The notes under the pieces: model-generated | Database searches by the model: none | What the model was told of the DNA's origin: nothing | Seen by the model: the letters and a program-made list of their open reading frames with translations, nothing else | From: Mya arenaria | Lineage: Eukaryota; Mollusca; Bivalvia; Myida; Myidae | Direction: 5' to 3' | Assembly: GCF_026914265.1 (NCBI RefSeq) | Contig: NC_069134.1 | Coordinates: forward strand, 14,229,205 to 14,293,204 | DNA length: 64,000 bases | Shown: positions 20,262 to 42,198 of the stretch, piece after piece | Layout: each line of letters opens with the position of its first letter | How positions within the stretch are numbered: the first letter of the stretch is position 1 | Made by a program: the position numbers and the translations under genes

Positions 20262-21018
20262 ATGGTATGATGTTGTTTGGTGAGGAGATGTTGTATGGTG
20301 AGGAGATGTTGTATGGTGAGGAGATGTTGTGTGGAGAGATGTTGTATGGTGAGGAGATGTTGAATGGTGAGGAGATGTTGTATGGTGAGGAGATGTTGTA
20401 CGATGAGGAGATGTTGAACGGTGAGGAGATGTTGTATGGTGAGGAGATGTTGTGTGGTGAGGAGATGTTGTATGTTGAGGAGATGTTGTATGGTGAGGAG
20501 ATGTTGTATGGTGAGGAGATGTTGAGTGGTGAGGAGATGTTGAGTGGTGAGGAGATGTTGTGTGGTGAGGAGATGTTGTGTGGTGAGGAGATGTTGAATG
20601 GTGAGGAGATGTTGAATGGTGAGGAGATGTTGTATGGTGAGGATGTTGTATGGTGAGGACATGTTGTAAGGTGAGGAGATGTTGAATGGTGAGGAGATGT
20701 TGTATGGAGAGGAGATGTTGAATGGTGAGGAGATGATGTATGGTGAGGAGATGTTGAATGGTGAGGAGATGTTGAATGGTGAGGAGATGTTGTATGGTGA
20801 GGAGATGTTGAATGGTGAGGAGATGTTGTGTGAGGAGATGTTGTATGGTGAGGAGATGTTGAATGGTGAGGAGATGTTGTATGGTGAGGAGATGTTGTAT
20901 GGTGAGGAGATGTTGAATGGTGAGGAGATGTTGTATGGTGAGGAGATGTTGTATGGTGAGGAGATGTTGAATGGTGAGGAGATGTTGTGTGGTGAGGAGA
21001 TGTTGAATGGTGAGGAGA
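20262..21018 (+). repeat. 18-bp minisatellite, about 42 copies
   Basis: The unit is GGTGAGGAGATGTTGTAT, with TAT/AAT/TGT as the main variable triplet. A few units have a 3-nt deletion (near 20328 and 20825). The strand composition is strongly skewed: G and T rich on +, C and A rich on -. The unit length lets all frames stay open and would give hexapeptide repeats, but there is no gene context. The array lies between the 3' ends of C9orf72 and ETNK. Confidence 0.95.
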
Positions 21019-21267
21019 TACTCGGGCCACACTCATTGCCATCTTGAATCTGAGTTTCAGTCTCAGGCTCAGGTTTCTTGAATGTTTCAAAATATCTATA
21101 ATAAAACTAATGTTGATTAAAGTTGTTTGCCTGATTGATGAACGTATTATTTGTAACAGATACAGCACTTTTGACCATATTTACTGCTGTAATAGCATTT
21201 TTGCAGCAAAATTAATTTTTCGCTTTTCTGAGCCGAAGTTTCAAACTCCGACTCTGGACGTTAGTGA

Positions 21268-21521
21268 ATATGGCCCCAGGTCTTGTCACGGGCCCAGGTC
21301 TTGTCACGGGCCCAGGTCTTGTCACTGGCCCAGGTCTTGTCACAGGCCCAGGTCTTGTCACGGGCCAAGGTCTGGTCACTGGCCCAGGTCTTGTCACGGG
21401 CCCAGGTCTTGTCACGGGCCCAGGTCTTGTCACGGGCACAGGTCTTGTCATGGGCCCAGGTCTTGTCACGGGCCTAGGTCTTGTCACGGCCCAGGTCTTG
21501 TCACGGGCCCAGGTCTTGTCA
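21268..21521 (+). repeat. Second 18-bp minisatellite, about 14 copies
   Basis: The unit is GGGCCCAGGTCTTGTCAC, with small variants (TGGCCC, AGGCCC, GGCACA). It begins about 250 bp after the first 18-bp array but shares no sequence with it. It lies about 250 bp beyond the ETNK stop codon, so it could fall within the ETNK 3' UTR or read-through transcript. Confidence 0.93.
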
Positions 21522-21774: not shown

Positions 21775-24700
21775 TCAATTATCCGGAACAGGCAGTGCTA
21801 ACAGCTCCTCCTTCCTTGATAAATAGTGCTCAAACCTCTTCTGTGCATATCTGAAGAAGGGAAACATTATATTTAGTATGTTGACAGGTCATCAGGTGAT
21901 AAATGTTGAACATGTTTTAAGCATCATTGTATAAAGAACCATGAATGCTACTTACTCTAAATACCCGAAGTCGATAAGCGATAGCTTTGTTTGAGCCAAA
22001 GCCCATAGCCCACAAAATAAATCTGAGGCCTGAAATAATAAAGAACCAAATTAAATGAACCATTATGTAATACTTTGTATTGTGCGTGCATTGAAATTAT
22101 GGGATTAAAATTGTATTCAGATAATCATGTTAGAAATACAAGCACCCTTGAGAACGATCTGCAACATTTACCAATGTAAACTTGTTAGTCAACACATAAC
22201 ATCTCTCAACGTCACTGTCGGCTACGGCATCTTGGGAACGGCCTTGACTTTTTGCCTTCTGTTCGAGGTAGTACCTCAGCCAGTCTAACTGATAAGCCTT
22301 GTCAGGAAATTGGCTATAGTCTAGAACCTCGACACCTGGAAGTGAGTTTACACGGTATCGGCAAAGGAATTTTGAAGTTTTATGATAGTTACATTTTATG
22401 TGTGTTCAGACTTCAATTAAATATCCTTATCGACCTAGATTTCATTTTTAAGGTTTAATTGACCTACTAACTCCCTTGACATACTGAGTCGTTTTAATGG
22501 GATACATAATTATGGAGTTACTTAGTCGTTGTAATGAGACACTCGGTCGTTATCATGAGTTATTCAGTGGGAAAAATGAGATACTGAGTCGTTATAACGA
22601 GTTATTTAGTGGTAAGAATGAGATAATCGGTCATTAATACGAGCTATCTAGTGGTAAGAATGAGCTACTCGGTCGTTAGAACGAGTTATTTAGCTTAAAG
22701 AATGACCTACTGAGTCGTTATAACAAGTTATTTGGTGGTGGTAAGAATGAGATACTCGGTCGATATAGCGAGTTATTTGTTGGTTAAAATGAAATACTGA
22801 GTCGTTATTAAGTGGTAAGAATCGGATATGGGTTGTTATAACGAGTTTTTCAGCGGTAAGAATTTGATACTGGGTCGTTAGAGCGAGTTCTTCAGCGGTA
22901 GGAATGCGAAACTGGGTCGTTAGAACGAGTTTTTCAGCGGAAAGAATTCGATACTGGGTCGTTAGAGCGAGTTCTTCAGCGGTAGGAATGCGATACTGGG
23001 TCGTTAGAACGAGTTCTTCAGCGGTAAGAATTCGATACTGGGTCGTTAGAGCGAGTTCGTCAGCGGTAAGAATTCGATACTGGGTCGTTAGAGCGAGTTC
23101 GTCAGCGGTAAGAATGCGATACTGGGTCGTTAGAGCGAGTTCGTCAGCGGTAAGAATGCGATACTGGGTCGTTAGAGCGAGTTCGTCAGCGGTAAGAATT
23201 CGATACTGGGTCGTTAGAGCGATGGGTCGTGAGAGCGAGTTCTTCAGCGGTAAGAACGCGATACTGGGTCGTGAGAGCGAGTTCTTCAGCGGTAAGAATG
23301 CGATACCGGGTCGTGACAGCGAGTTCTTCAGCGGTAAGAATGCGATACTGGGTCGTTAGAGCGAGTTCTTCAGCGGTAAGAATGCGATACCGGGTCGTTA
23401 GAGCGAGTTCTTCAGCGGTAAGAATGCGATACTGGGTCGTTAGAGCGAGTTCTTCAGCGGTAGGAATTCGATACTGGGTCGTAAGAGCGAGTTCTCAACG
23501 GTAAGAATTCGATACTGGGTCGTTACAATGAGTTATTTAGTGGTAAGAATAAGATACTGAGTATTTATACAATGTAATATGAATTAGGGATGCATTCGAT
23601 GTATTGTTGTTGAATAATTATAATAATAAATATTTTGCCTACAACTTTGTTGTTGTGTTTAAGATTCGTTTGTCTTGTTTTTACAACGATTGGCCAATAC
23701 TGCCAGAGGTGTGAATGTGATGACAATACACTAAACACGCCTCATGTGTCATTTAGGGACTTATCGTCGAGTCCTATAAAAAGTCCCCGTAATTTTACAA
23801 TAACTGGCTGTAAGACAAGTGACACAAAAAATCAATTATTTTCAGTAAATTGCCCCTTCCGATTAAGAATTTCTAGAATAAACTAGTTCCCAAGTTGGTT
23901 TGTTTTTTTCCATAGATTTTTTAGTTGAAGTCAATCCCAGAACGAGGCTGCTCGTCCTACGGTAAGACCCTCCATTGGCGCATAACGCCAATTCACCAGA
24001 ATTCCATCTAAGATCACGTTGTTTACAAATATGAAGGCAGATAATATAAATTAAGAGTTTTTGTTTTTTTTATTACTTTTTGTCTTTCTGAAATGAGGAA
24101 TTTCAGAGGCTCATTTAGTGAAATTCAGGGTCTGCCGCGCGTAGTGGTTACGACAAAGTAGAGCTAAATGTTCCGGCTATTACTTTAGCGAATGATGTAA
24201 TAGTTTACTACAACTTTTAAAAGACGTATTTTGGTATTCGAATATTCGTTCGAAAGAATTACCGAATATTCGAATATCGTTTGCATCCCTATATATGATA
24301 CAATGTCGTATTAACGGGATACTAGGTCGTGTAAAAGAAAACTATTTAATGCATCAATCGTTTTCACGTTTATTTAATAGATTATGTACTATCGGTGCCG
24401 ATCTTGGTGCCGATCTTCTTTAATATGCGTCATATTTCAATTTCAAATGAGGTATATATGCATTATATACAAGGAAGTCCTCTTACCGGCATACTCGTTA
24501 AAATGATTCCCGAGTTCGTAATGCTCGTGATTGTACATGGCAAATACGTAGTCGATGAATGCCAGTCTATCTGAAATAAGAATTAAGGTACTAACTCGTC
24601 CAAAACCATTTGAGTATGAATTATAGATGAATTGCCTTTTGAGCTGGGATTCTAAATGGTGTTTATGCTCAACTAATGTATAGTATCACCCACCTGTCTC

Positions 24701-27700
24701 CTTGTTGTACACAATGTTGTTCATTAGGAGGTCGCTGTGGCAAAACACAACGGGGGAGCCAATGTGTTCAAGATGAGCGTGCATGGCATTCACTTCTCGC
24801 AGGCGAACATCCTAAGACGGAATACTCGCCCACAGCCTGTGTAATTTATATAAATGGATGTTAGCACTATGCCCGTCCCTAGTGAGGGTGTCAATCTATC
24901 CTTTGGTACACCGGATTACAGGTCATTTTTGGCGGTACTCCGGGTGCCGAGGTTATAGGTTTGCCGCATACTGGATTCAGATTCCATAAGGAAACAAGCA
25001 CACATATGACACATATATAAATGACTTAAAAAAAAAATCGCCATTATTGCATATTTTCGAATTATACATATCGCGTTTTCTTTACGGACAAGATTGCCCG
25101 AACCCCAGTATTGCATTTCAACTGATATTGTTATTTAAGGGTCATATTCCTTTTTCGCCGACACTACCACCCCGAACATCGAATCTAGGCATCATCGCTA
25201 GTCACACCATTGCAATAGCAAATATAACTTCAAACATAATTGAACACGTTTTTATTTTAAAGGGGAAAACGTATATAAACAAATACGTAGGAACTCCACG
25301 AGGCCTGTAACTGATATTTCTTCTATTCCCTGGCCTTTTTAGGGGGAGCTATAATTGTAGCAGTCTAGTATATAGCCCATTTTTAGATACGACTAAGCTG
25401 GGCCTGAGGTGGATCAAAATACAAGACTTAGTCAATATATGTATATATAATTATGTTAGTGCGTGGTACACATTAACTTTCCGTAGCATTCCTTGTTTTC
25501 ACTTGTTTTATTATAAGAGATTACTAGAGAAACCAATATATAGATAAAAATATACAAACACGAAGGAATATTTGGACAAGTTAAACAATATAGTTATACT
25601 AAATGGTATTCCGGATGGCGGGCCAAAAGTAAACGGTATTTCCGGATAACAAGGGGGAAACCGCTATGGCTACATTAAGAATTGACCCAGCGCATCCTCA
25701 TTGAGGTGCTCTTGAAAAACAAGAAAATGGGAACATACTCGCACACCATGTCGTTACAGAACTATTTAGAACACGAAGAGTTGTGTAACGACGATGAACG
25801 ACATCTTATACCATGTGTCGGGTTGTACAGGTTGTACACGTATACTAACTTGTCATTTCTCTCTGCGTCGTCTGGTCCGAGTTCCCAGAATGTCCGCATC
25901 CGGTCCCAGAAAGCCGCCTTACGGTCGCGGCCATCCAATGTCACACTCTGAATCTTCACTATCTCCTCTGCTATCAATCTAAAACACGAAAAAACAACAA
26001 CTTTAAAATGTGAAACATTATATACTGTGAAATCATTTATATTCGTTGGCATGAAATTTCGTGGTTTGCCGAAAAATTAAAATTTCGTGGGTACTTGAGT
26101 TCGTGGTTTTTCATTTTTGAAAAAAAAAATCGAAACTGCGATCGTCCTAGATCGTCTGCATTATCTCCACGCGCTGGCCCATGATTTCCGTCCTCTATGT
26201 CACTCGGTTTATGACACTCTTTGGTACGACATGCCAATTAGTGCATATACCCATGTCAATTATCGATTTAATTGGAAATTAAGGTCCTAAAAGAAGATTT
26301 ACCCTGATCATAAATATGGATAGGCGAAGCCATTGAATGCCAATTAAGAATTTTGCAAACTGTGAAAATACCGAGAAGGTCCGTATATTTGATTAAGCAT
26401 TCCCAAAAGATAGCTGATGTTTACAAATTCAATCACTTTTGAATATCATCTTATTTCATATCAAATCATTTAAATATTTATTCACACGTTTTTGTTTAAT
26501 AATTATTATGAACACGTTGTTTTGTACATTGTCACGTTGGGTGCTCAGTAGCCTCAAATGTTATCGATTAATTATTTCATTAAAGAAAAAAATCGAAAAC
26601 CGACACTCATCACTCACATCTTGTTAACCTGGAGATTTTCATGAATAACACACGTTTAGGCACGTGCTTCTGTCATTTGGTTCATAAAAACACATTTAAA
26701 TGATTTGGTTTATAATTTGTTAAAGGCAGATATAATATATTAACAGAACAATTATAGTAAGATATACAGTGAGACGGATATTTACGCTGTATACTGCGGC
26801 CTCTGGTACGAATAAACTAGAGTATGTACATAACATAGCAATTGAAAAAGTGAACAAAGGGTCTTTATTTAGTGGGATCTTGAATTCGTGGATCACCTAA
26901 CCCACGAAAACCACGAACATTAATGCCCCACGAACATTAATGATTTCACAGTATTTAAGACAGCTGACAAAAAATTAGATAGCAGATTTTTATATTTAAG
27001 TTTAAAAAGTAATGTTTCGAACGGAAATATGGAAATCTACGATCTGATTTTTTGGCAGCAATCATATATCATTGTTTTGCAGATATTTATGCAAAAATTT
27101 GCTCTTTCCATGACAAAAATTTTAAAAAAGTTGTAAAAATGGTATATCTGTGAGAGTGCAGCTCTAAAATTTATGATTTAATGACAACTGCCTTGAAATA
27201 GATACCTGATTTAAGCATAATGCCAATGTTAATAAATTTCTATTATATTTTACTGTGAAATAATGTAAATATATACATATAATTGTTTGTGTTAGTTTAA
27301 ATTTGCTTGATTTATCATTAACCTAATTATATATTATTTCATTTTTTTGTATTAACCCAATATTATGTCATATAATATGTCTATGAGTATATAATACCAA
27401 GGTAAACACATGTATACAAATCACTTATTATTATGTATAGATAGTTTTTATTTCCATGTAACTCATTTGCCTACATACATTTTGGAAAATGTGGTCCATT
27501 ACAGATAAAACCCAGATGTATACATGGATTTCCATATTATGCTGCCCAGAATAAAAGACGATGCAGTCCAGATAAAAACATTGTATGGCTCAATAATCTT
27601 TACCAAACTTGGTAAAAAAAACTTTGTCATATTATGAGAAATCCCTGGTTTTTTTTGTTAATTATGTTCATTCACAGAATATGCAATTCACCAAGCAACA

Positions 27701-30700
27701 CAAGACTTAATGTCCACTTGACACATTTCTAGTATATTTGGCTTGTACATAAACATCACTTTTTCATAAGAGAATAAATCTCATGTAGGACATTTAGATT
27801 GCTCTAGAAATAATTGCCAAGATGTTTTGCATTTGAATCATGTTTAAAGCATACCCAACATTATTTGCATTTATTGTGTTCATAATTGTGTTGTATTCTT
27901 CCTTTTTAAGATGCATCAGATGAAGTCTTTGGCTACTAGTACCTAGAAAGGGATTTTGTAAGCTAGTACTGGACATGAAGACAGTCACTTGGAAATGATG
28001 ATTGTGCAACAGCGGTTAAACATATGCAATACATCATATGGTAATTTCTTTTCACCTCAATGAATATTTAAGTGACCTACCCACATATAAAGTGATTCTC
28101 TAATAGTTCCAATTTCCACTTTGATTTTGTAATCTGGTATTCTTCATTACTACTACCCGTAACTGGTATCTAAAAATAACATTATAATATTCATCAATAA
28201 TATCATAAGACCATGTGAATATTCAGTAATTTATATATGTAATCAATTTGTTTTTGTGTATGTGGTGTTTATATGTTGGAGTTTGTAGTTCATTGTCAGT
28301 GATTTTTTTTATTGTGAAAAACTCAATTTTCCCCAAAATTAAAAAAAATTACATTACATTCCGGATTAAAATAGCAATGAATTTCTTGAAATATAAACAA
28401 AATCTTGACAAGTCTTACTCTTTCACAGCATAAGGTATGCATAAAAAAGTTTAAAAAAATATGTATATTTGCCATTATATAAGCTATTTTGGCCTGATTT
28501 TGTATTTTTTCCAAAGTTGACTTTTTACCGAATTTGCAAGGTACATTGTACAGGCAGTAAAAAGAATTCATAAAAAAATCACTGATTGTTGTCAAGTGTT
28601 TTTTATGAATGTTGTTCAAGTTTCGTCCTTGGGGTCAAAGTTGTCCCAACTAGAGTTCCCCTGTTACTGATAGACTTCTAGAACAAAAATTGATACACAT
28701 TCAAATCAGGCAATGACTTCTGCAGTAATGTATGAATTTCTTAGAAATTGATGTCTAAACTAAAAGGTATTTAGTTTCAAAGAATATGAAACAAGTTGTT
28801 ACAACAATATAATAATCACCTTTTGGCACGATGTTAAGCAAGGTTTTGCCTTGTTGAGGAAATCGTAGACCTCGTAGTACCCTTAAGGAACCCACTTGTC
28901 TGACTTAGTGACTACAATCCAAACTCACAATGTCTTCCTTAACAACCACTTTATAAGCAACCAAGGACATCCTTATCAAATACCTCATTTACAGCAGCCA
29001 ATGACTTCCATGAAAAATGATGACTTCCTAAACAATCCTTGGCTTCTTTATCAACCAATGATTGCCTTAGCAACTACCTTCATCCATAGCAACAAATGAA
29101 TTCCCATTCAACCAATGACTTCATTAGCATCCAATTCCTTCCAACGCATCCATTAACTACCTTTATAGGCACCAATGCCTTATTTAGCAACCACTTTTTT
29201 CCTGAGCAACAGCCAGCATCCATAGCAACCAATTACTTCCTTAGTAATCATTGACTTCCATAGCAGCATTCAGGCTCATTACCATAACATCCATTGACCA
29301 TGGGAACAACCAGCTTACCATACTTCTCATTTCTGTTAACAAAGAGCAGCCTTCTTTGAGGAGTCCTTATCAACCATCAAATAACACAACAACCACTAAC
29401 CTGCTAAGCAAATAGTAACACCTTTCATAACCAGTTGTTACCTGACTGACTTGTTCATGGTCAATTTAATCAGGTGATCAATTAAGGGCCATGCTGGCCC
29501 TTTTGTTTTGAATGTACATTTTCTTAGCTTATTCATTTAATTCAGCAAATGTATAAACATAGTGTACAATTCTGGATACTTTCAAGTTTTGTCAATATTA
29601 TATATTATCAATGTTTTAATTTTCAAACAGGTGACCAGACAGGGAGGAAACTAGGGAAATGGTTATCCACCAACAGCCCAAGTGCTTGGTTGATAAGAGG
29701 AGCCACATCATTAAACATTACTTCCCAAAGTGGTGTGCTTTGCAAACACTTATGATTGTGATTTGATAAAAAGGCAATGAATGAACGCACATTATTCATA
29801 ACTATAACTAAAACATTGATGTCAAAAGTTGTCAATTTTCAACATATATAGTATTTGAGATCCTGATCTATAGTTGTGTGCAATGGATTATCAAAGAAAA
29901 ACAAAAGAGTGGGCAACAAAATGAATTGCATAATGCACCAGTCAATTGTAACCACACCCCGCCCCCAGGTCTGGGGACTTTTGACTTTCGGTCCAGCCTA
30001 CCCCAGGTTAAATTCCCTGAACTGATGGTAAAATCCCTGCCAAATTCCCCCGCATCCAACATACCATAGGTAACACAAAACCACCGCATTCACACCCAGT
30101 ATACCCCCGGACGGGGGTGGTGGTGGTTACAATTGACATGTGCATTACCCACTACCCATTTACACCAGTAATTCATAATTATATTTGATAGACATGCCTC
30201 TTGTCAAAGGTTTTGAAGGGTATGAACGTCAGAACTACCTGCCTATGGCCTTTCAAAATTTTTGTAACATTGTTAAACTAAAGAAATTATTATTAAGTTT
30301 ATACTAGATCTTTGTTAAGAGTGACCCCTTTGATAATTCTGGAGAAAAACTATTAGGATTAGGTTCTGTATTTGACCATAATTTGTCATATGACATGTAA
30401 GCAGGAGTTCATTCCTTCAAAGAATTGTGAATCTTTTATAATTATGTATTTGTAAAAACAACACGATTTTAAATAAGTATTTTACATGTGAAATCATTTT
30501 ATACGAAGGGTCTAATTTGGCATTAATTAAAAATGACAAATTGGTGTTGTTTCAAGTATAACTTAAGTTTTTTAACACTACCAATCCCATTCTTTTTCAA
30601 ATGAAGTTTTCTGACAGTTTTACTGTTATGGTTAACAATTGGAGCTTATTTTTACCGGAAGTGACGCAAAATAGAAGTGTTTTACTCATTTTCAGGACGC

Positions 30701-33700
30701 GGTCGAAAATAGGTTGTGGTCGAAAATAGGTTGTTCCGGAACATATGTAAATCTGCGATCTGATCTTTTGTCAGCAGGCTTATATCACTTATTTGCATAT
30801 ATTTACACAGAAACTGGCTCATTCAAACTCCAAGACAAAAATAAAAAAAAATAATAAAGTTGTCAAAATACATGTATAGGTTTGCAGATATTTATACAAA
30901 AATTTGCTCTTTCCAAGACAAAAAATAAAAAAAGTTGTAAAAATGGTATATCTGTGAGAGTGAAGCTTTAACTTAAATATATTTGCAATCCGATGTTTTT
31001 TTTAAGCAGTCTTGTGTCACTGTTTTTCTTGCACTTATGCATTAATTGGCTTGTATAAAGACAAAAAATAAAACAGTTGTCAAAACATTTAATTTGTTAA
31101 AGTGCAATGTTTATTTAAATATACTTGATGCTTGCCTCAATCATTGCCGCTGACAGATCATCAGATGACAGCACCAACATCCAACAATGCAGCGATATTT
31201 TTAAAGTCTCTTTCACATCATTCTGTATCCTAATATTTTAATTTATTTAAGATAGTTGCTTATCAAGATGTTGAACGCATATTTTACAGCCTTTTAGGCT
31301 TTAGAGTGTATTCAATGTCATTTTCAGACAGAAATATCTTAATCGAAGCTAGGAACAAGCTCACAACTGGCATTAGTGAGTCATGCCTGTCAAAACTAAT
31401 TTTGGGGTACATGCATGTCAGTCCAGAGTTTTTGCCCTCAAAACTTATCATTTTGATAAAGGTTACCCAGGGTCAGTGTTTATTAACACCTCTGTGATAA
31501 TGATCTAAAGCAAGCCGCAGAGTTATAAATACTGACTGCCCAGCTGGTGTTAAATTTCTAACACATGTTTCTGAGAACCGATCTGTACATCTCATCGTAT
31601 TTTCTCTTGTTTTTGTTGTTCAGAACATTTCCAAACCGATTTAGTATACTTTAAAAATAGAAGAATTAATTTTATTGCATTTCTTTATAATAAGACACTT
31701 AGAATACAACATTGAACACTTCAGGGTACATGGAATGATCATTTCAAGGCCAGAGCATTACCAATATCCCATTATTCCTTTTTTCTTTATAAATTTATTT
31801 AATTATTTTTACTTTTTTGAGACTCATGCTATCAACATGGATTGCTAAAATTTCAAATACATTAAATTATCATGAAAAGCACGCACAGTGACACTCCTAT
31901 TTCAGCTGATACTTTTTTAAGAATGAAAAAAAAATCGTAAATACGTGCAGTTTAAACTATTAGAAAACGACATTTCATTTTATTCTGAATTTGATAAGAT
32001 ATTCGTATCTGGCGATCTAAACAGCAGGGTCGGTCATAAGTGTGATTTTATTGTCCATGACAATATTAATACTGTGTATGACGATACCGACTATGTTCCC
32101 GACCATACCTCTGTCAGGGCCTCAGTAGACGCTGTACATAATAGTCACGGGATTAAACTTCTTGATATGTGTAAGTCTACAAATTTGCGCATTTTAAATG
32201 GTCGAATAGGTAACAGTCGTAAACACACATTTTATGCTCATAACGGATCATCCGTAATCGACTACTTACTGACTCGTGAATGTAACTTTTCATTGTTATC
32301 CAACTTTACGGTTGGCGATTTCAATCAGTGGAGCGATCACGCACCGCTGCATTTTGTATTGTATTGTAACAATTTCACGCCTCAGTATGAAACATACACC
32401 GATGTTAAATATAAATGGAACAGTTCGCTACGCGAACAATTTCGCTCAGGTATAATCACAAAACTACCTGTTTTCAATGACATTGTTGAGAATATAGACT
32501 GTTTAAATAGAGTATCAATAAATGACACATTAGATAGATTTACCGCTACAATCCGTTGTGTCGCGGATCCGTTGTTTTCAAAGCAATGCAATTACAGTAA
32601 TAAACCGTGTTTTGAAACGGAAAGTTGCATTAAAAGTGCTGATTGGTTTGATAATGATTGTGTTAATGCAAGGAATTTGTACCAAGAATCTTTATGTAAT
32701 TTTAATACAAATAAGACTGAGGTAAATAGGTCTGCACTGTGTTCACGAAAGAAATATTACAAAGATTTAATTCGTAAAAAGAAAAGTTGTGCCTTTCGAA
32801 TCAAAATGAAAGAAATTGAAAACTTAAGAAGAAGTAAGCCTAAAGAATTTTGGAAATTCTTTAAATCAAAAAATAAATTAAATAATTGTAATATTTCTCT
32901 GGAAGATTTCAAGATTTTTTTTGAAAATCTTAGTAACAATACGTCTGATTGTAATAATGCTGAGGCTGAACATTTTTGTTCGAATCACGACTTTGACGAA
33001 AGTAACTTAACATTTCCAGAGTTAGATGAACCTATTTCTGTCAACGAAGTAAATTGCGCAATTAAACATTTGAAACGTAATAAATCGACTGGTAGCGATT
33101 GTATTTTAAATGAGTATTTTATTGAATGTGTTGATATATTATCTAGCCACTGTTGTGACATATTTAATAGCATTTTATCATCGGGTTTCTATCCGGAAAA
33201 GTGGACAGAAGGTGTAATTATTCCTTTACATAAAAAAGGATCTATTGATGACGTTAACAATTATAGAGGAATTACACTTGTAAGCTGTTTTTCAAAAGTA
33301 TTTACAACAATTTTAAACAAACGCATCGAATCATTTTGCGAAGCTAATGCCACTATTTCGGATGCGCAATTCGGATTTCGAAAAGGTTGCTCAACTGTTG
33401 ATGCTATTTATATTCTTATTTCTATTGTGCAAAAGTATATTAATGAAAATAAACGACTATATGTAATTTATGTTGATTTGCTTAAATGCTTTGATAGTAT
33501 TTATCGCAATGCATTATGGCTAAAACTATATAATACTGGTATAAAAGGTAAACTACTTAGAGTAGTTAAAGATATGTACGAAAATGTTAAGTCAGGTGTT
33601 AAATCATGTGCATCTTACTCTGACTATTTTAGTTACGCTGTAGGCCTGCGTCAAGGGGAGGTTATGTCCCCGATACTTTTTTCTTTGTTCGTGGAGGACC

Positions 33701-36700
33701 TAGAACTATTCATGCAAGATAACAATAATTCTGGTTTAAATATTGATGATATTGTATTGATTATGTTGCTATTTGCAGATGATATGGCCATTTAAGGCAA
33801 GTCTCCACAGGAAGTCCAATCCCATTTAGATAACCTCTATTTGTATTGCAATGCATGGGGTCTAAAAGTAAATACATCTAAGACTAAGATAATGGCTTTT
33901 CGTAAACGCGGTGGACTACGTCAAGATGAGAATTGGTTATATAATGGTCATACTATCGAAGTAGTTGATAACTTTAACTATTTAGGAACTGTAATAAATT
34001 ATACTGGAAGTTATACATTTAACCAAGAGCATTTGGTTGGGAAAGCCCTTAAAGCTATGAATATATTATTATATAAATGCAAAGAATATGACCTAAGTCC
34101 TAAACTGTTTTGTCAATTATTTGATGCTTTTGTTGGTTCGATATTGAATTATGCATGTGAAATATGGGGTTATACTAAGTCAAAAGAAATAGAACGTATA
34201 CATTTAAAATTCTGTAAGCGATTGATGCAAGTTAAAATAAACACATGTAATGCTACAGTATATGGAGAACTCGGGAGATATCCCTTATATATCAATAGGT
34301 ATGTCAGAATTATAAAATACTTTTTCAAACTTAATCGTAGTACTAATATTATTATCCAATATGTTTACACCCAGGCTATTAATGATTGTAATAAAGGGTG
34401 TGTAAACTGGGTCTCTAATGTTAAAAAATTGTTAAACGATTATGGATTTGCATATGTATTTGATAACCCAAGTGCTATATGTGTTAACACATTCATATGC
34501 GAATTTAAGTGTAGAGTGATAGATACTTTTAAACAAGAGTGGTACGGAAATATTAGTAAGAGTACTGTTTTAGACATGTATAGACTATTTAAAACCTCTT
34601 TCGAGTATGAAAAATATCTAGATTTAGCGCCTAAAAATTTACGTTTATACTTTGTCAAGCTTAGAGTTTCTGTACATCCATTGAGAATACAAACCGGAAG
34701 ATATGCACGCAACAATATAACTCGCAATGAACGTTATTGCCTATGTTGTAATGACTTAGATATTGAAGATGAATTTCATTTCATTTGTGTTTGTAGGTGC
34801 TATTCGCAAATACGTAAACTTTTTATAAAACCACTGTATTATGTAAATCCATCTGTTTTTAAGTTTCATAAATTACTGACTTCGTATGACAAGACTGAAA
34901 TTATGAATGTCTGTAAATATATGAAACAAGCATTTGTTATACGCAACTCAATAATTAATAACATGACATAAGTACACTACTAAAGATAATTGTCCTCACT
35001 GCCAATGTTATCAAGTAATACATACTATAAGGTTAGTTACTTAGAAATCAATTCTTGACTTTTGCTTGACAACATGCCTTAAATTTGTTAAAAAATCCTC
35101 TTAGTTTGTTTAGAGAAATGACATGAACTTATGTATAACTATATGTATTAAGACGATGTACAATTGTACAAGTCTAATAAAATATCTGTTCTGTTCTGTT
35201 CTGTTCTGTTTAAATGTTTTCTGACAAGATAACCATTTTTTTATTTGTCTTGAATTACTGCAACATCATATCGGTGTAATAAATATTGATATTGATATCT
35301 GGCGTGAATAAAATGAGCTTCCTCATTATGTCTCATGTTCTTTTCAACACACGCTAATGGCATTTTATTAACAATTCAATGTTATAAATTCAATTAGCAT
35401 ATAAACGCTTTCAAAAAATACCACAGGTGCAAATTTGTATACGTGGCATAAAAACGCAACATATAGTAATGAATAGATGAATAGAACTGTTTCATGATGT
35501 ACTTCATACGGACATAAAATACTACGCATTTCGAAATGCAGATCAAAATCATCATTTGAATGTGAAAATGCAAATATGATCAATATCGACAGCGCTGTTT
35601 TGATAAAATCTTCGCTTTATTTTACAATGTCTGTGTATTGATCTTACATGTATCTAAATGCCTAATTGTCTTAACAAATATCTGATCTGAATATCACGTT
35701 GTGCAGTTTTGGAGGTTTTATTATAGAAATGGACCCTAAATGACTCTGAGCCAATACACAAATAAACAGGAAATTAGCCCCTACGGTGCCATCAGTGCAA
35801 TTAGCATGAGATGCACAGCAGAGGATTGCCATGCCAAACATTCCTTAAACTAGGCCTTTTAAAGTAATACTGGTAACTGCGTTTCATTTACTATCAGAGG
35901 GAATTATTTTCTTTCAATCTTTGAACGGTAAGATGCATTACCTTTTTTTATAAAAAGGTACACTTACTTTAAATGTATCCCATATGTCAAGTTCACAATA
36001 AACCATTGGTCGCAATTTAAGAAAAACACATACAAAGTGTGTCGGTTGGTTATGTATACACTATAACCTCTTAATCAAGGAATTGAAACGAGACCTACCA
36101 CTACGTCAACACTATCAGCTTGTTGGTTTATTTGACACACATTTTTCTTTGGACTAAAAACGAGTTAAGATGGCGGTAAAACCCCAAGAAATCAAGTCAA
36201 TTTAGTGCCCTGTAAATCTAAATTCTGTTGATATGAAGTTTATCTAGTGCCAAACATACCACAGTAAGGCTCTTCTACATCCAACTCAGTTCAAAATAAT
36301 CACAAATGCAGCTACATTTAAGTCCATCATGTGTCAAGCTAACATCTAAGCAGCATAACAGTCAGTATTCTTAACCACGTAAGGCTTCTACACGAACCCT
36401 TATAGGGTCTGACGATTCCTTTTGTGGATACAGTCACATTCACTTAAAATTGTAGTTGATAGGAATAATAGAATAACACACTAGTATAAAATTCATTTAA
36501 ATCTGAATATAACCTTTTGCTATGATTCCCATTTTATTCTACAGCTCATGGAATACATCGAATAAGTATGGTGGGCGGGATGGGTTGTGAGTGGTGAGTG
36601 AGTGAGTGGATGGGCCGGTGTGTCGGAAAGTTGGATGAGTGGACGGGCAGGCGTGAGAGTGAGCGAGCGAGTGCCACGTTATCAGACATATGTTGTTGTT

Positions 36701-39700
36701 TTTTATCTTATTATCACATAAAGGGAATCATCGTTCAAACCGTTCAGCACTATCAGTGCTTTGATTATAAATACAATTCATTCATGACAAACTCAATGCG
36801 AACATACTGAAATTGGTCAGTACAAGAAACATCTGGGAATACACAGTAAATAGCCCAGCAGGATGACAAGCTAAGTGGTGATTTATTGACTGGTTCAATT
36901 TCATAGACCAATAAGCCTTCTTTCAAAATGAGGAGTTCGGGAGGCAATTTCCCTGGACTGATGTGTCTTTTAAAGTAGAACAGTAGACATCAACTTTACA
37001 ATGTACATGAATACATTGCATTCATACTTTAGTTATTTATGTATTCATGTACATTGTAAGTTTTTGTAGATGTAGATCGTGTCGATGAGAACAAGCCGTT
37101 TAGTTAGCTCAGTTGGTTACAGCGCCATGATAGTGTTCCAGCAGTTGTTGTTGGTTCAAGCTCCACACTGGGGCACTTCTCCTCCCAGGTTTATTTAAAT
37201 GGTGGCAGCGGTACATGGCAGGAGTGCCTCCGTCGGCTTTAAACTACAGTCGAAACTCGATGGCTCGATATTCTAGGGACCAGCCAAAATAGTTCGAGCC
37301 TCGAGAATATCGAGCCAAGCGGGATTGCTTACAGAATGTTATTTTTTTATTATTCGTTACAAAAAGTCTTGTTTACCTCGTTTGTTATTGGCTATGCTAT
37401 CTCCGCAAGAGAAGAGTATTAACTGGACATAGTTACACGTCGTAAAGTTCGTAACATCACTTATTCAATACTTAGAAAATATTATTTGATTGTTTTTATT
37501 AATTATAAAATTTATGCGAGAACAACATACAAGTAATTTTAAACAGTGGGTAACAAAAACATAGCTTATTAGTTATATCAGGATGCATTGAAATTTATAC
37601 ATGTATAACAATTAGAGAAAGAACTTAGATAAAGTGATGGCATGTTTATTCAAACTGTTAAGTCATTCAAATTTGATAATAATTATAACAAATTCAAGTA
37701 ATTTTTATCGATTAGCGCCGTGTGCTAAATGAAGCCAACAAAACAAATCAAGGTGTGAGGTTCTTACCTGAACCCGCGAAAATGACATCGACCCAAGCAA
37801 ACAAAATTGTGAAATTCCCACTTGGAACCGCAAAAATGACTTCGAGCGTGGAGAAATATCGACCCTCAAGATATCGAGCCATCCGATCAAATTTTATATG
37901 AACAAAGAGTTAAACAAAATCGGTTCTTTTAATCTGGTTCAAGCCAACGAGGATATCGAGCCAACGAGTTTCGACTGTAATATATATATAAAGGGTTAAT
38001 GGAGAGGAGTGGAGTGTATTGTGTGTCACTGTCAGTGTGTAAGAACCAGCCGCTCGGTTACAGTCTGATCATCAAGTTAATGGTTATTGAGATTATGGAA
38101 ATACTTGTACCATAAGTCATGGTTTTTAAGTTTATTGTTTAAAGTTCCATTTTCTAGTTGTTTTGACCTTAAAGGTGCACTCTCACAGATTGAACGTTTT
38201 GACAATTTTTTTGTCTTGGAATGAGGCAATTTTTGCGAAAATCCATGGAAACCAGTTACTAGTATATATAGTTGCCTTCCACGTAAGTATACTCAACGAA
38301 ACTTGTGAGTGTACAACTATTTCCAATGGAATAAATTTGGAACACATATTTGATCCAAGTTAAATCAATATTTCGAGATAAAAGTCAAGTGTACATTGAT
38401 GTAAAATAAATTGCGCAAAATTGTACCAACATCTAACATAACGCATCATGAGACAACACCATAACATAACGACAACAAAAACTGACTGCCCCTTAATAAT
38501 AACCATCTGTATTATATTGACTATCATCGACAACGACTTCATACTAATAAGGACAGTAGCGTTTCCGATTGAAGTTTGTTATTTCTGCATTAATGTAGTA
38601 AATTCACCACTGTTATTTATTATAAATCGTTTATTATGAAAAACAATGTTTAATCATGTTACGAAATCATCTGTAAAAAAGTTTAACCCAATGTTATCTT
38701 TGCGGGTCGTATAATAGGCATCGTTACAATTCAATTGCAACATGATTTTGCCCGTTCGAAGAACACGCTGTTTGGCAAAAATTTGTAAACCGGTTAAAAG
38801 ATACGACATCCAGTTACTTTGCAATTGTATAAAAAATATAACATGTTGTATAATAACTTATGCACGTCTGTATGAAGCCAAGCTTGCCACGCCTTTTCCA
38901 GGAGAGAAATTCAGTCACATCACAGTAAATTTCCTTCTGCATTTAATGGTTAAGAATCTGTATGCACCAACGAGCGTATTTCAACCGCCTTTGTTAAAAA
39001 AAATCATGGTTAAAAACATCAATAACGAATATTTTAATGTTTGTATACTTGAAGTTTCGTTGGGTATATATGCACTTACTGACGAATTGCTAACTATTAT
39101 TGAACCACTTTTCCAACTAATGGACACTACTGAACTTAATATAGATTGAAAGAGATTTTACACAGTGGCATATACCAAAAAACCATCGTGTTCCACCAAC
39201 GCATCACAAACCTGGCGATCGTTCATACGTCTTTAAACTAAGTTAAGGAGGCATGATATTTGTTAAAGACGGTTAATTTATTTTACGAATACCATATAAA
39301 ATCATACAGGACATATGATTAAAACTATTCCATCAATGTTCCTTAACTCCTTGAGGTTTAAAGCGCCACCTACCTGCCTATGTGAGCCTAACTCCTGGAG
39401 GTTTAAAGCGCCACCTACCTGCCTATGTGAGCCTAACTCCTGGAGGTTTAAAGCGCCACCTACCTGCTTATGTGAGCCTAACTCCTGGAGGTTTAAAGCG
39501 CCACCTACCTGCCTATGTGAGCCTAACTCCTTGAGGTTTAAAGCGCCACCTACCTGCCTATGTGAGCCTAACTCCTTGAGGTTTAAAGCGCCACCTACCT
39601 GCCTATGTGAGCCTAACTCCTTGAGGTTTAAAGCGCCACTTACCTGCCTATGTGAGCCTAACTCATGGAGGTATAAAGCGCCACCTTCCTGCCTATGTGA

Positions 39701-42198
39701 GCCTAACTCCTGGAGGTATAAAGCGCCACCTACCTGCCTATGTGAGCCTAACTCCTTGAGGTTTAAAGCGCCACCTACCTGCCTATGTGAGCATAACTCC
39801 TTGAGGTTTAAAGCGCCACCTACCTGCCTATGTCAGCCTAACTCCTGGAGGTATAAAGCGCCACCTACCTGCCTATGTGAGCCTGCCGTACAGAGTCTGC
39901 GTCCAACGTCTCCCCTGAGACGTAGCCGTAAGCAATCCCGTTGTTGAACGTCGCGTACAGCGGTGCGCAAAGCCCACGTGCGTGTAGTGTCTGTATATAA
40001 TTATTATAATTATGCGGATATATGCATGGTCAGCGTTACATGAAAAAGTATCATGTGGCATAATGATCTGGCATAATATCTTAATCACCTCCTATTTCAT
40101 CACGTTTATGTCATGATACCATTCATGTAGAATGCGTGTTTTTTATTCCGGAATTTGAAATTAAATATCAGAACATTTGAAGCGAAAGTCAGCTGCTAAA
40201 AGTTTATACAGACACATACTAGATTCTACCACGGTAAAATATAATGGCATGATACCTTAATGATTTCCTTCTCCAAGACCCTGTCCGTGAATAGTTCTGT
40301 ACCGACTCCATTGATACGGATTAAAACCGTTTCGCCCAACTGGTCGTATAGGTAATAACCGTAAAGTTGGTTAGAAATACCGTTACTAAACACCTGCCGA
40401 AAAAATAAATTCTGAAAACGAGCGCCTTCATACAATAAAGTGGGTTTGAAGGGATGAGATTGAAAAACACATTTGCGACTAAACAAAAAAGGTTAAAGAA
40501 TAGTTTTATATTCGTCCAAACGACACGTATAATTCAAACGAGTTTTTTTTGAGTCTTGAGCCTGTAAGACTGAACTTTGATAATTAAAGAAATTTGTTAA
40601 CACCTACGTTTTCAGGAAGTAAATTGTAGTAACAAAATTTTATTTTATTCATCTTTCTTATTTGTAATGATACCATTGGATGATGTAAATATTTTTTTTC
40701 GTAAACACACACAGTAACCATTTTTTTGCAGATGAGTGTAAAACTGATTTGGAAAATAGAACATATTATTCAGAGTGAACAAAATATAGTAAACTGCCTA
40801 CCATGTAGCGAAGGATATGTTTTACCTTTGCAAAAGTATGTACCCTTAACAAATGACAATGGATTCGTCGAAGGTTGAAATGTTTGACCTTTGCCATCCA
40901 CTTGGGTATTTTGAAAGAGCCTTGTGAGGGGAAACCAAGAACTTCCCACAATAATCACGGTAATAGTTTAAGCAGTCTCATTGCAACATTCCCAATCTTG
41001 CAGATAATTTTTGATGGTTTGCGTTGTACATGAAATACTATTTTTCAAGATTTTCGTCCACGTGTTTTTATCTGTAGTGACCTACAAACTATAGAAAACA
41101 TACCGCCGTTACTTGTGTACACTCATTAGTCGGCGCCCTTTTAGTCGGCGCCCAGAAGGGCGCCGACTATATTTGATATTACTTTAGAAATATTCCAACT
41201 TAGGGACTAGTTCATATATTGCAGAACAATGCTTTCAATAGTTTCCACGTTGCATGATAAAATATGAAGTTTAATTTGTTTTATAAAACTTAACACTTTA
41301 ATTGATCATGAAACCTTGACTTATAATAGCCCTGCTTATCGTTTTGATTTTAAATACCAACTCAATCATAGCAACTCGGCCATCTCCGAGATAGATACAG
41401 GCCGAGGTGTTCCGATTGATATATATGAAGGTTACACGGTACTATTAAAATCTCCTTTATGTCTGTAAACCTCCTACGCAGTAATCTCCCTTGGTGACAG
41501 CAAAAATGCCGAGTTTTGAAAAATTAACCTTGAGCTTATTTGTTTGTTTTGAAAATGCCATTCGAAAGAATGAACTCCCGATAATTCCCCTTTAATATAT
41601 AGTATTTTTACCCCCATTCTATATACTCATATGAGTGAAATGTGTTACATAAACTTGTACAAAATATAAAGCAAGGAATTCACAGAACATGCCGGTACAA
41701 ATAAAAGGTGATTTTCATGCTATTGAAATCTATGTATTAGACCATTGACTCTATTTAATCCGAAGAAACGTATGTATATTTTTGTTATTATTCAGTTTTA
41801 ACCGGAGGATTAGCTTGGGGAAAAAATAACCATAATGTCCTTCGAGCATATGTACACCCAACATAAAACAAAATATTATCATTGAAATAATAACCATTTT
41901 TGGTTATCTGCATGCATGTTTTTCTTCTAATTTCATTGCGCCGACTTGATGCTATGCATCAACTTTTTTCTTGTGCTTTATTGGCCCACACATCTCTTTC
42001 ATGGAATTGGCCAGGTTTATCTTTTTCGATAGTTTGAAAAATGTCAAAAATTACCTTAGACTGAATGGTGCCTTCCTTATCCTCTGTAAACCACTCAGGT
42101 CTGATTCCCTTCAGGATTATTTTAACTTCATCGCATACATTGTTACTTATCTTCTCAGCATCAATGGTAAAGTCATGATGTTGGCATGTTCTAGACAT
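21775..42198 (-). CDS. ETNK1: Ethanolamine kinase (ETNK / easily shocked family), nine coding exons, 350 aa
   Basis: Exons on the - strand: 42198-42055, 40393-40256, 39990-39869, 25978-25846, 24811-24694, 24570-24487, 22335-22172, 22029-21956, 21850-21775. All junctions are GT-AG with matching phase, and the total is 350 codons plus TGA. The enzyme phosphorylates ethanolamine with ATP in the cytosol, the first step of the CDP-ethanolamine pathway. Seen: GIRPEWFTED (31-40); VFSNGISNQLYGYYL (49-63), like the family VFTDGITNKLV; FNNGIAYGYVSGETLD (about 111-126); Brenner motif FCHSDLLMNNIVYN (202-215; His204, Asp206, Asn211); FIDY (223-226) and LGNHFNEYAG (238-247). Odd: the family IDYE, HND and YDIGN become IDYV, HSD and YELGN. 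About 5-8 residues typical of the family are absent at the exon 4/5 join, so a small exon may be missed or the exon 4 end may differ. ETNK1 versus ETNK2 cannot be settled. Confidence 0.88.
22480..23560 (+). repeat. 42-bp minisatellite in ETNK intron 6
   Basis: About 25 units. The best-conserved core (22860-23520) has period 42 bp: GATACTGGGTCGTTAGAGCG, then AGTTCTTCAGCGGTAAGAAT(T/G)C. The left part (22480-22860) and the right edge are older, diverged 39-42 bp units with GATACTGAGTCGTTATAACG. Because the period is divisible by three, open frames run through it, but no gene is implied. It sits between ETNK exons 6 (24487) and 7 (22335). Confidence 0.93.
26025..26951. mobile_element. TA-flanked TIR DNA transposon remnant (MITE-like), ETNK intron 3
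   Basis: The terminal inverted repeat CTGTGAAATCATTTAT at the left matches the complement of the right end (ATTAATGATTTCACAG). TA dinucleotides flank both ends (26023-26024, 26952-26953). Both ends also carry TTCGTGG/CCACGAA motifs. No transposase is readable inside. The TA target and TIR fit the Tc1/mariner-pogo superfamily, but the family is not proven. Confidence 0.7.
27028..27180 (+). repeat. Dispersed repeat ending TATCTGTGAGAGTGCAGC, copy 1
   Basis: It shares GCAGATATTTATGCAAAAAT, TTTGCTCTTTCC, GACAAAA and GTAAAAATGGTATATCTGTG with 30735-31120. A partial inverted copy occurs at 38168-38260 (GGTGCACTCTCACAGATT). Probably a MITE fragment. Confidence 0.65.
28890..29440 (+). repeat. Degenerate tandem repeat of about 30 bp
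   Basis: Diverged units around AGCAACCAATGACTTCCTTA, with TTCCATAGCAAC and CAACCACTT variants. C and A rich on +. No coding role is seen. It lies in ETNK intron 3. Confidence 0.6.
29934..30144. mobile_element. MITE with TIR TGCACCAGTCAATTGTAACC, copy 1 (211 bp)
   Basis: The left end TGCACCAGTCAATTGTAACC is mirrored at the right by GGTTACAATTGACATGTGCA. The ends are flanked by TAA and TTA. The interior is GC-rich with CCCC and GGGG runs next to the TIRs. Same family as 55384-55776 and 58260-58329. No coding capacity. Confidence 0.8.
30735..31120 (+). repeat. Dispersed repeat, copies 2 and 3 in tandem
   Basis: Three partial head-to-tail copies of the 27028-27180 repeat, recognised by AATCTGCGATCTGAT, TTGCTCTTTCCAAGACAAA and AGTTGTAAAAATGGTATATC. 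The last (30975-31120) is the most diverged. Confidence 0.6.
31925..35211 (+). mobile_element. 5'-truncated LINE with AP-endonuclease part, reverse transcriptase and C-terminal zinc motif
   Basis: One frame runs from about 31927 to TAA 34969-34971. It is broken only by an in-frame TAA at 33793-33795, right after the catalytic FADDMAI. Order: C-terminal part of the endonuclease (GDLNSRVG near the start, then SSVIDYLL and WSDHAPLHF); reverse transcriptase (EKWTEGVIIPLHKKGS, NNYRGITLVS, AQFGFRKGCSTVDAI, VIYVDLLKCFDSI, GLRQGEVMSPILFSLF, FADDMA); C-terminal cysteine/histidine block (YCLCCNDLDIEDEFHFICVC). The first ~100 endonuclease residues are missing. The 3' end has AATAAAATATC followed by a TTCTG pentamer tail (35190-35211), as in LINEs that end in short tandem repeats. 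It sits in ETNK intron 3 in antisense orientation. It looks fairly young. The clade is not settled. Confidence 0.88.
35215..36990. other. Intronic stretch without recognised features
   Basis: Part of ETNK intron 3. Only low-complexity GTGAGTGAGTGAGTGGATGG-like DNA at 36580-36680 was noted. No exon, RNA gene or repeat family was seen. Confidence 0.6.
36996..37059. repeat. 21-bp perfect inverted repeat
   Basis: The arms at 36996-37016 and 37039-37059 are exact complements (core CAATGTACATGAATACAT) and are separated by 22 bp. It could be the end pair of a very short foldback element. Function unknown. Confidence 0.85.
37095..37245 (+). mobile_element. tRNA-derived SINE head
   Basis: An A-box-like TAGCTCAGTTGGTTA (about 37103-37117) and a B-box-like GGTTCAAGCTCC (about 37152-37163) stand about 35 bp apart, as in tRNA genes. 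The segment cannot fold as a full tRNA and runs on into a non-tRNA body (GGGGCACTTCTCCTCCCAGG). I therefore call a SINE rather than a tRNA gene. Its right side is interrupted by the TIR element at 37247. Confidence 0.6.
37247..37977. mobile_element. TA-flanked TIR element of 731 bp, pogo/Tigger-like ends
   Basis: The left end CAGTCGAAACTCGATGGCTC and the right end GAGCCAACGAGTTTCGACTG are near-exact complements. TA flanks both ends (37245-37246, 37978-37979). The CAGT start and TA target match pogo/Tigger-type elements. The GATATCGAGCC motif recurs near both ends. No transposase frame was seen, so it is non-autonomous. Confidence 0.78.
39342..39884 (-). repeat. 45-bp minisatellite that duplicates the ETNK exon 3 splice donor
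   Basis: Twelve units with a 45-bp period. On the + strand each reads GCGCCACCTACCTGCCTATG, then TGAGCCTAACTCCTTGAGGTTTAAA. On the gene's strand this contains GGCTCACATAGGCAG|GTAGGTGG, which is exactly the end of ETNK exon 3 plus its donor. The right-most unit (near 39868) is the real exon-intron junction, and the other eleven lie in the intron. One copy has GGCAG|GTAAGT (GT at 39643-39642) and one has lost GT (near 39688). The array evidently arose by amplification of the exon end. Confidence 0.9.
41128..41168. repeat. Hairpin of AGTCGGCGCCC copies
   Basis: Two direct copies of AGTCGGCGCCC (41128 and 41143) are followed by the inverted AAGGGCGCCGACT (41156-41168). The first and last pair over 13 bp. 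The GC-rich stem stands out in AT-rich DNA. It lies in ETNK intron 1. Confidence 0.75.

Follow-up and report, generated by a model that had tools for sequence, protein, structure and literature searches.

In a 64-kb window of the Mya arenaria genome (C13:14229205-14293204, from an assembly of 1,216,080,610 bases in 18 contigs), a minisatellite of twelve 45-bp units lies across the junction of exon 3 and intron 3 of an ethanolamine-kinase-type (ETNK-type) gene, here called gene A. The array is probably a minisatellite of recent origin that has taken in a splice junction; the duplicate gene that hosts it is redundant and probably dying, and the effect of the array is probably neutral. An earlier note on this DNA had described it as a minisatellite multiplying the 5′ splice site of an essential enzyme exon, and possibly as a tunable, length-variable splice regulator. 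That description was accurate to the base, and the multiplication of the donor is real. As an interpretation it held for the amplification of the junction and for the stop that follows use of a decoy donor, but not for the essential enzyme, the tunable regulator or the stop as a property of the array.

Structure and position of the array

Tandem Repeats Finder (TRF) placed the repeat at 39344-39884 with a period of 45, 12.0 copies and 95% matches, and reading unit by unit gave the same twelve tandem units on the minus strand. Each unit corresponds to the terminal 16 nt of exon 3 followed by the initial 29 nt of intron 3, and unit 1 crosses the border itself (exon side AGGCTCACATAGGCAG, intron side GTAGGTGG). 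Eight of the 45 columns are variable, and the 12 units fall into 8 types. The string CAG/GT (slash, exon-intron border) is kept in 11 of the 12 units, of which unit 1 is the exon-intron junction; among the intronic copies 10 of 11 retain GT, the exception being unit 5 (GA), and unit 6 reads CAG/GTAAGT with its GT at 39643-39642. These readings agree with the earlier note in copy number, in the identity of unit 1 and in the retained donors. With head-to-tail units in the range of about 10-100 bp, many copies and high identity, the array is a minisatellite, and since it starts at an exon-intron boundary and repeats a donor in each unit, it has the anatomy of the minisatellite of human IFI6 discussed below.

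The spliced model of gene A also agrees with the exon 3 (39990-39869) and the exon 4 start (25978) proposed before. Exon 3 is 122 bp long in gene A and in two paralogs, B and C, and its phase-2 end falls at one common place in all three. Exon 3 and its donor are genuine.

A 26-base core of the unit, searched with up to 3 mismatches, had 12 matches in the 1.216-Gb genome, all 12 inside the array, and the reversed core gave 0 matches in the same genome-wide search. A DNA search of the genome with the whole region, which passes over very common words, returned only the window itself and exon 3 of paralog B. The array as a piece of a dispersed repeat was rejected, the unit core being confined to a single locus.

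Gene A is one of several related genes

The Pfam family PF01633 was found at four loci (11 exon-level matches), which is a lower bound: gene A in the window, B at C13:17.92 Mb, C at C4:50.62 Mb and D at C4:72.99 Mb. Scores were 206.6 bits for A (with X at the stop described below), 231.2 for B and 242.5 for C against a cut-off of 29, which places all three in the choline/ethanolamine kinase family. Human CHKB, for which the sequence of a PDB match served as query, gave summed scores of 298 bits for D, 130 for B, 106 for C and 70 for A. Since CHKB fits D best, D resembles a choline-kinase gene, which leaves A, B and C as the apparent ethanolamine-kinase-type set; the name ETNK depends on this elimination and on known ETNK sequence. 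The nine-exon models encode 357 residues in A (read through the stop), 378 in B and 363 in C, with GT-AG introns and equal phases, and the frames of B and C are uninterrupted. Judged by these comparisons, gene A is a divergent duplicate, one of at least three ETNK-type genes. Its intron 3 measures 13,890 bp, against 614 bp in B and 218 bp in C.

Origin of the array

Sixty bases read out from the last unit's donor into the downstream flank aligned with the start of intron 3 of paralog B at a score of 47.5, where shuffled sequences averaged 26.5 (standard deviation 4.0) and 0 of 500 reached it. Sixty bases from the real donor into the array did not align with intron 3 of B (21.0 versus 20.1, reached by 199 of 500 shuffles). 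No array of four or more copies was present in the 20 kb around paralog B, and the 45-bp array is not present in paralogs B and C. Because the intron of B matches the last unit together with its flank, the array grew in place after the duplication. Most simply, the ancestral A-B intron would have carried a single copy, with about 495 bp of units added in A after the A-B split.

Coding status of gene A

An active kinase was taken to have an uninterrupted frame, the Brenner motif HND...N and the motif ID(FWY)E; in gene A the frame is broken by the TAG at codon 186, and the two motifs read HSD and IDYV. At sites conserved among B, C and human CHKB, 8 differences are private to gene A, including Gly to Asn in the P-loop (the SGG stretch is taken as the P-loop by our own mapping), HND to HSD and IDYE to IDYV; at the matching class of sites 7 differences are private to B, 5 of them conservative by eye. 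The motifs are those given in PMC4364537, which calls them indispensable. The published choline-kinase motif is not absolute, however, because B and C also depart from it elsewhere: its D is E in both, and C has IDHE. Taken as assembled, gene A is unlikely to encode an active kinase. Together with the two uninterrupted ETNK-type paralogs, the stop and the changes in the P-loop, Brenner and choline-kinase motifs tell against the view of gene A as an essential enzyme. The TAG at 24814-24812 stands in an otherwise complete nine-exon frame; gene A may be a pseudogene of very recent origin, or the stop may mark a null allele that still segregates.

Donor strength and predicted products

Donor strength was calculated as the energy of the ViennaRNA duplex with the 5′ end of U1, the U1 sequence being assumed to be conserved in the clam. 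The duplex energies were -12.9 kcal/mol for unit 1, -13.2 for unit 6 and -8.2 for unit 5. Genes A, B and C have 24 internal donors in all, and that of unit 1 ranks first; the other 23 range from -2.6 to -12.2 kcal/mol. The exon 3 donor of paralog B (L014:6101-6125, C13:17.923 Mb) is very weak (CAA/GTTGGT, -2.6 kcal/mol) and occupies the same position as the donor that in gene A is the strongest of the set.

Read-through past the first donor in the exon frame gives AGG and then TAG immediately, so that use of any decoy would truncate the protein, as proposed before; in-frame protein variants from downstream units fail at the same TAG. The immediate stop is not specific to the array, because paralog C, which lacks the 45-bp array, also reads AGG and then a stop past its phase-2 donor; paralog B has no immediate stop. 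No sparing of the decoy donors from substitution was visible, the 9 donor columns of the 45 holding 2 of the 8 variable columns where 1.6 were expected, a comparison of low power. A structured RNA element was also considered and rejected (fold z -0.86; 19 of 100 shuffles folded equally well).

We propose that the 45-bp junction segment was amplified in place to 12 units after gene A split from its nearest paralog. Since neither the coding end of exon 3 nor the first donor was disrupted, unit 1 should still be usable for normal splicing. The decoy units could in principle bind the U1 small nuclear ribonucleoprotein (snRNP), and RNA cut at a decoy would keep 45n nt opening with a stop, leading presumably to a 135-residue product or to nonsense-mediated decay. 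By analogy with IFI6 we would expect mainly unit 1 to be used, and the one or two units that follow it to a small extent. Tolerance of the array probably reflects that gene A is redundant and, as assembled, unlikely to be active (the exon 5 stop and the three motif changes), and a selected regulatory role would not be needed.

Alternative explanations

Several results weigh against a neutral array in a dying gene. The similarity of the last unit and flank to paralog B is weaker over 120 bases (66.0 versus 55.2, reached by 21 of 500 shuffles), and intron 3 of paralog C showed no similarity over 60 bases (455 of 500 shuffles reached the score). Gene A has one stop and no frameshift, 8 of its 8 introns are GT-AG, and its PF01633 score is still 206.6 bits. 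Over 356 codons the A-B omega came to 0.20, and a fit with omega = 1 was rejected (lnL -2208.0 versus -2255.2). Private changes number 19 in A and 31 in B, so there is no excess in A, and the counts at conserved sites are close (8 versus 7). A three-branch codon fit with C as outgroup gave lnL -3272.4 with free branches, -3273.6 with A = B and -3275.3 with A neutral; saturation of synonymous sites drove the free fit to its bounds, and the pairwise A-B omega was used instead. Because of this omega, the lack of a private-change excess and the PF01633 score, gene A is taken to have been constrained through most of its history; if it is dead, its death was recent. Alternative junctions for exons 4 and 5 regained an open frame in 2 of 25 donor-acceptor combinations, through weak donors (-2.8 and -2.1 kcal/mol), and the exon 5 stop could be recent, polymorphic or bypassed. 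Finally, at -12.9 kcal/mol or better 11 GT sites were found on both strands of the window, 11 of 11 within the array; since the window has no stronger U1 sites than these, an effect of the array on splicing is plausible.

These observations leave some room for a functional gene with a harmless array, in which the TAG is an allele of the sequenced animal or is spliced out, most animals have a working kinase, and definition from the exon side keeps unit 1 in use. Such a gene would account for the low omega with A not accelerated relative to B, for the complete set of splice sites and for the two open junctions, yet the P-loop Gly, the Brenner Asn and the choline-kinase-motif Glu are altered and a bypass of the stop requires very weak donors; we regard it as rather improbable.

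A length-variable splice regulator is more doubtful still. Array length would set the share of decoy use, decoy RNAs would be destroyed and copy number would tune kinase output. Ten intact strong decoys, the stop met immediately on read-through and a unit length divisible by 3, which gives every decoy an identical outcome, all suit such a device. Against it, the exon 5 stop makes full-length protein unlikely as assembled, the decoy donors are not spared substitution (with only 8 variable columns to judge by), there is no special fold, paralogs B and C are without the array, and the post-donor stop also occurs in paralog C, where this array is missing. The tunable regulator found no positive support here and is unproven.

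We give slightly less credence again to the idea that the array is a natural titration series of eleven strong, near-identical 5′ splice sites after a single exon, whose action as a U1 snRNP sink, or as a length-dependent leak, silenced gene A during splicing before the exon 5 stop arose. An assembly artefact, with the array collapsed or expanded, is very improbable: copy number is often in doubt where tandem repeats are assembled, but the 12 units comprise 8 sequence types and alignment with the paralog puts the flank in place.

Minisatellites in the window and genome

Arrays of at least 4 copies were surveyed in 124 kb, made up of the 64-kb window and 60 kb around B, C and D. Fourteen arrays cover 8.8 kb of this, with 8 arrays (6.0 kb) in the window and 6 arrays (2.8 kb) around the paralogs. 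By a hand estimate, random placement would put about 3.4 of the 48 splice sites in A, B and C inside arrays and 1 was observed, hence no excess; the estimate uses the 7.1% array cover of the 124 kb and is biased, since the window and the 45-bp array are included. Sites of -12.9 kcal/mol or better are absent from all 13 other arrays, and any of -10 or better occur in just 2 of these 13.

Genome-wide, three CAGGTRRGT strings with gaps of 8-38 bases occurred 1847 times (1279 + 568), and the reversed pattern 1091 times (505 + 586); among the matches listed, all on contigs C1 and C2, the triples make up about ten arrays by eye. Donor-like strings in arrays thus seem common in the genome, because the triples outnumber the reversed pattern and those listed form arrays. 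The rarity of multiplied donor-like strings as such was rejected, many arrays carrying them; the special feature here is the overlap of the array with a real junction.

On contig C2, the long stretch 7694107-7732054 is one of several places in the genome with multiplied donor-like strings; its numerous arrays have units of about 41 bp that contain CAGGTGAGT. Gene A has further minisatellites in intron 6 and just past its 3′ end (22515-23559, 21275-21521 and 20269-21019), and intron 6 of paralog C also holds one (L016:5070-5200).

Features of gene A and its array (window positions)
Feature	Position	Strand	Basis
Exon 1, from ATG	42055..42198	-	Spliced model, GT donor, alignment with paralogs B and C
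Exon 2; paralog P-loop SGG/TGG changed to SNG, RIYG to RING	40256..40393	-	Model, alignment
Exon 3, phase-2 end ...AHIG(AG)	39869..39990	-	Model; 79% DNA match to paralog B exon 3
Minisatellite, 12 x 45 bp, unit 1 the true exon 3/intron 3 junction	39345..39884	-	TRF, unit reading
Authentic donor GT, CAG/GTAGGT, unit 1	39867..39868	-	U1 duplex -12.9 kcal/mol
Unit 5, sole copy without GT (GA)	39687..39688	-	Unit reading
Decoy donor, unit 6, CAG/GTAAGT, strongest in array	39642..39643	-	U1 duplex -13.2 kcal/mol
Intron 3, 13,890 bp	25979..39868	-	Exon coordinates
Exon 4	25850..25978	-	Spliced model
Exon 5, Brenner motif (CHSD...N)	24694..24836	-	Spliced model, alignment
In-frame TAG, codon 186, upstream of catalytic motif	24812..24814	-	Sense codons there in B and C
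Exon 6; IDYV in place of paralog B's IDYE (choline-kinase motif)	24487..24570	-	Model, alignment
Exon 7	22172..22335	-	Spliced model
Exon 8	21956..22029	-	Spliced model
Exon 9 with terminal stop	21775..21850	-	Spliced model

Comparison with known systems

Turri, Cuin and Porter (1995, Nucleic Acids Res 23:1854) reportedly described a minisatellite with multiple splice donor sites in human IFI6 (6-16, G1P3). Both it and the clam array are donor-multiplying minisatellites with anatomy of one kind, and on this analogy the clam array belongs to a type already known from human IFI6; by itself it reveals no new mechanism. The IFI6 minisatellite begins at the donor of exon 2 and has a unit of 12 bp against 45 bp in the clam, and its downstream units add in-frame residues, whereas the first codon after the clam donor is a stop. 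According to PMC4526556, which cites the 1995 work, three mRNAs of IFI6 arise because two downstream repeat units act as donors. Splicing at downstream units is thus reported in IFI6, while in the clam it is a prediction.

If gene A is transcribed, the array would offer a natural test of spliceosome choice among near-identical strong donors 45 nt apart, usually studied in artificial minigenes. It also illustrates that minisatellites can expand across a splice junction once a duplicated gene escapes constraint.

In the tandem-duplication model of intron gain, the duplicated stretch contains AGGT. Intron gain by tandem genomic duplication is described for a potato RdRp gene in PMC4974935. That case and the clam array are both intragenic tandem duplications, and splicing is affected in the potato gene according to that paper. 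The clam array, unlike potato RdRp, multiplies an existing junction inside an existing intron, with no new intron evident. It resembles ordinary intronic minisatellites in its single locus, period of 45, 12 copies and 95% match, and differs from them in that its unit 1 is a genuine splice junction.
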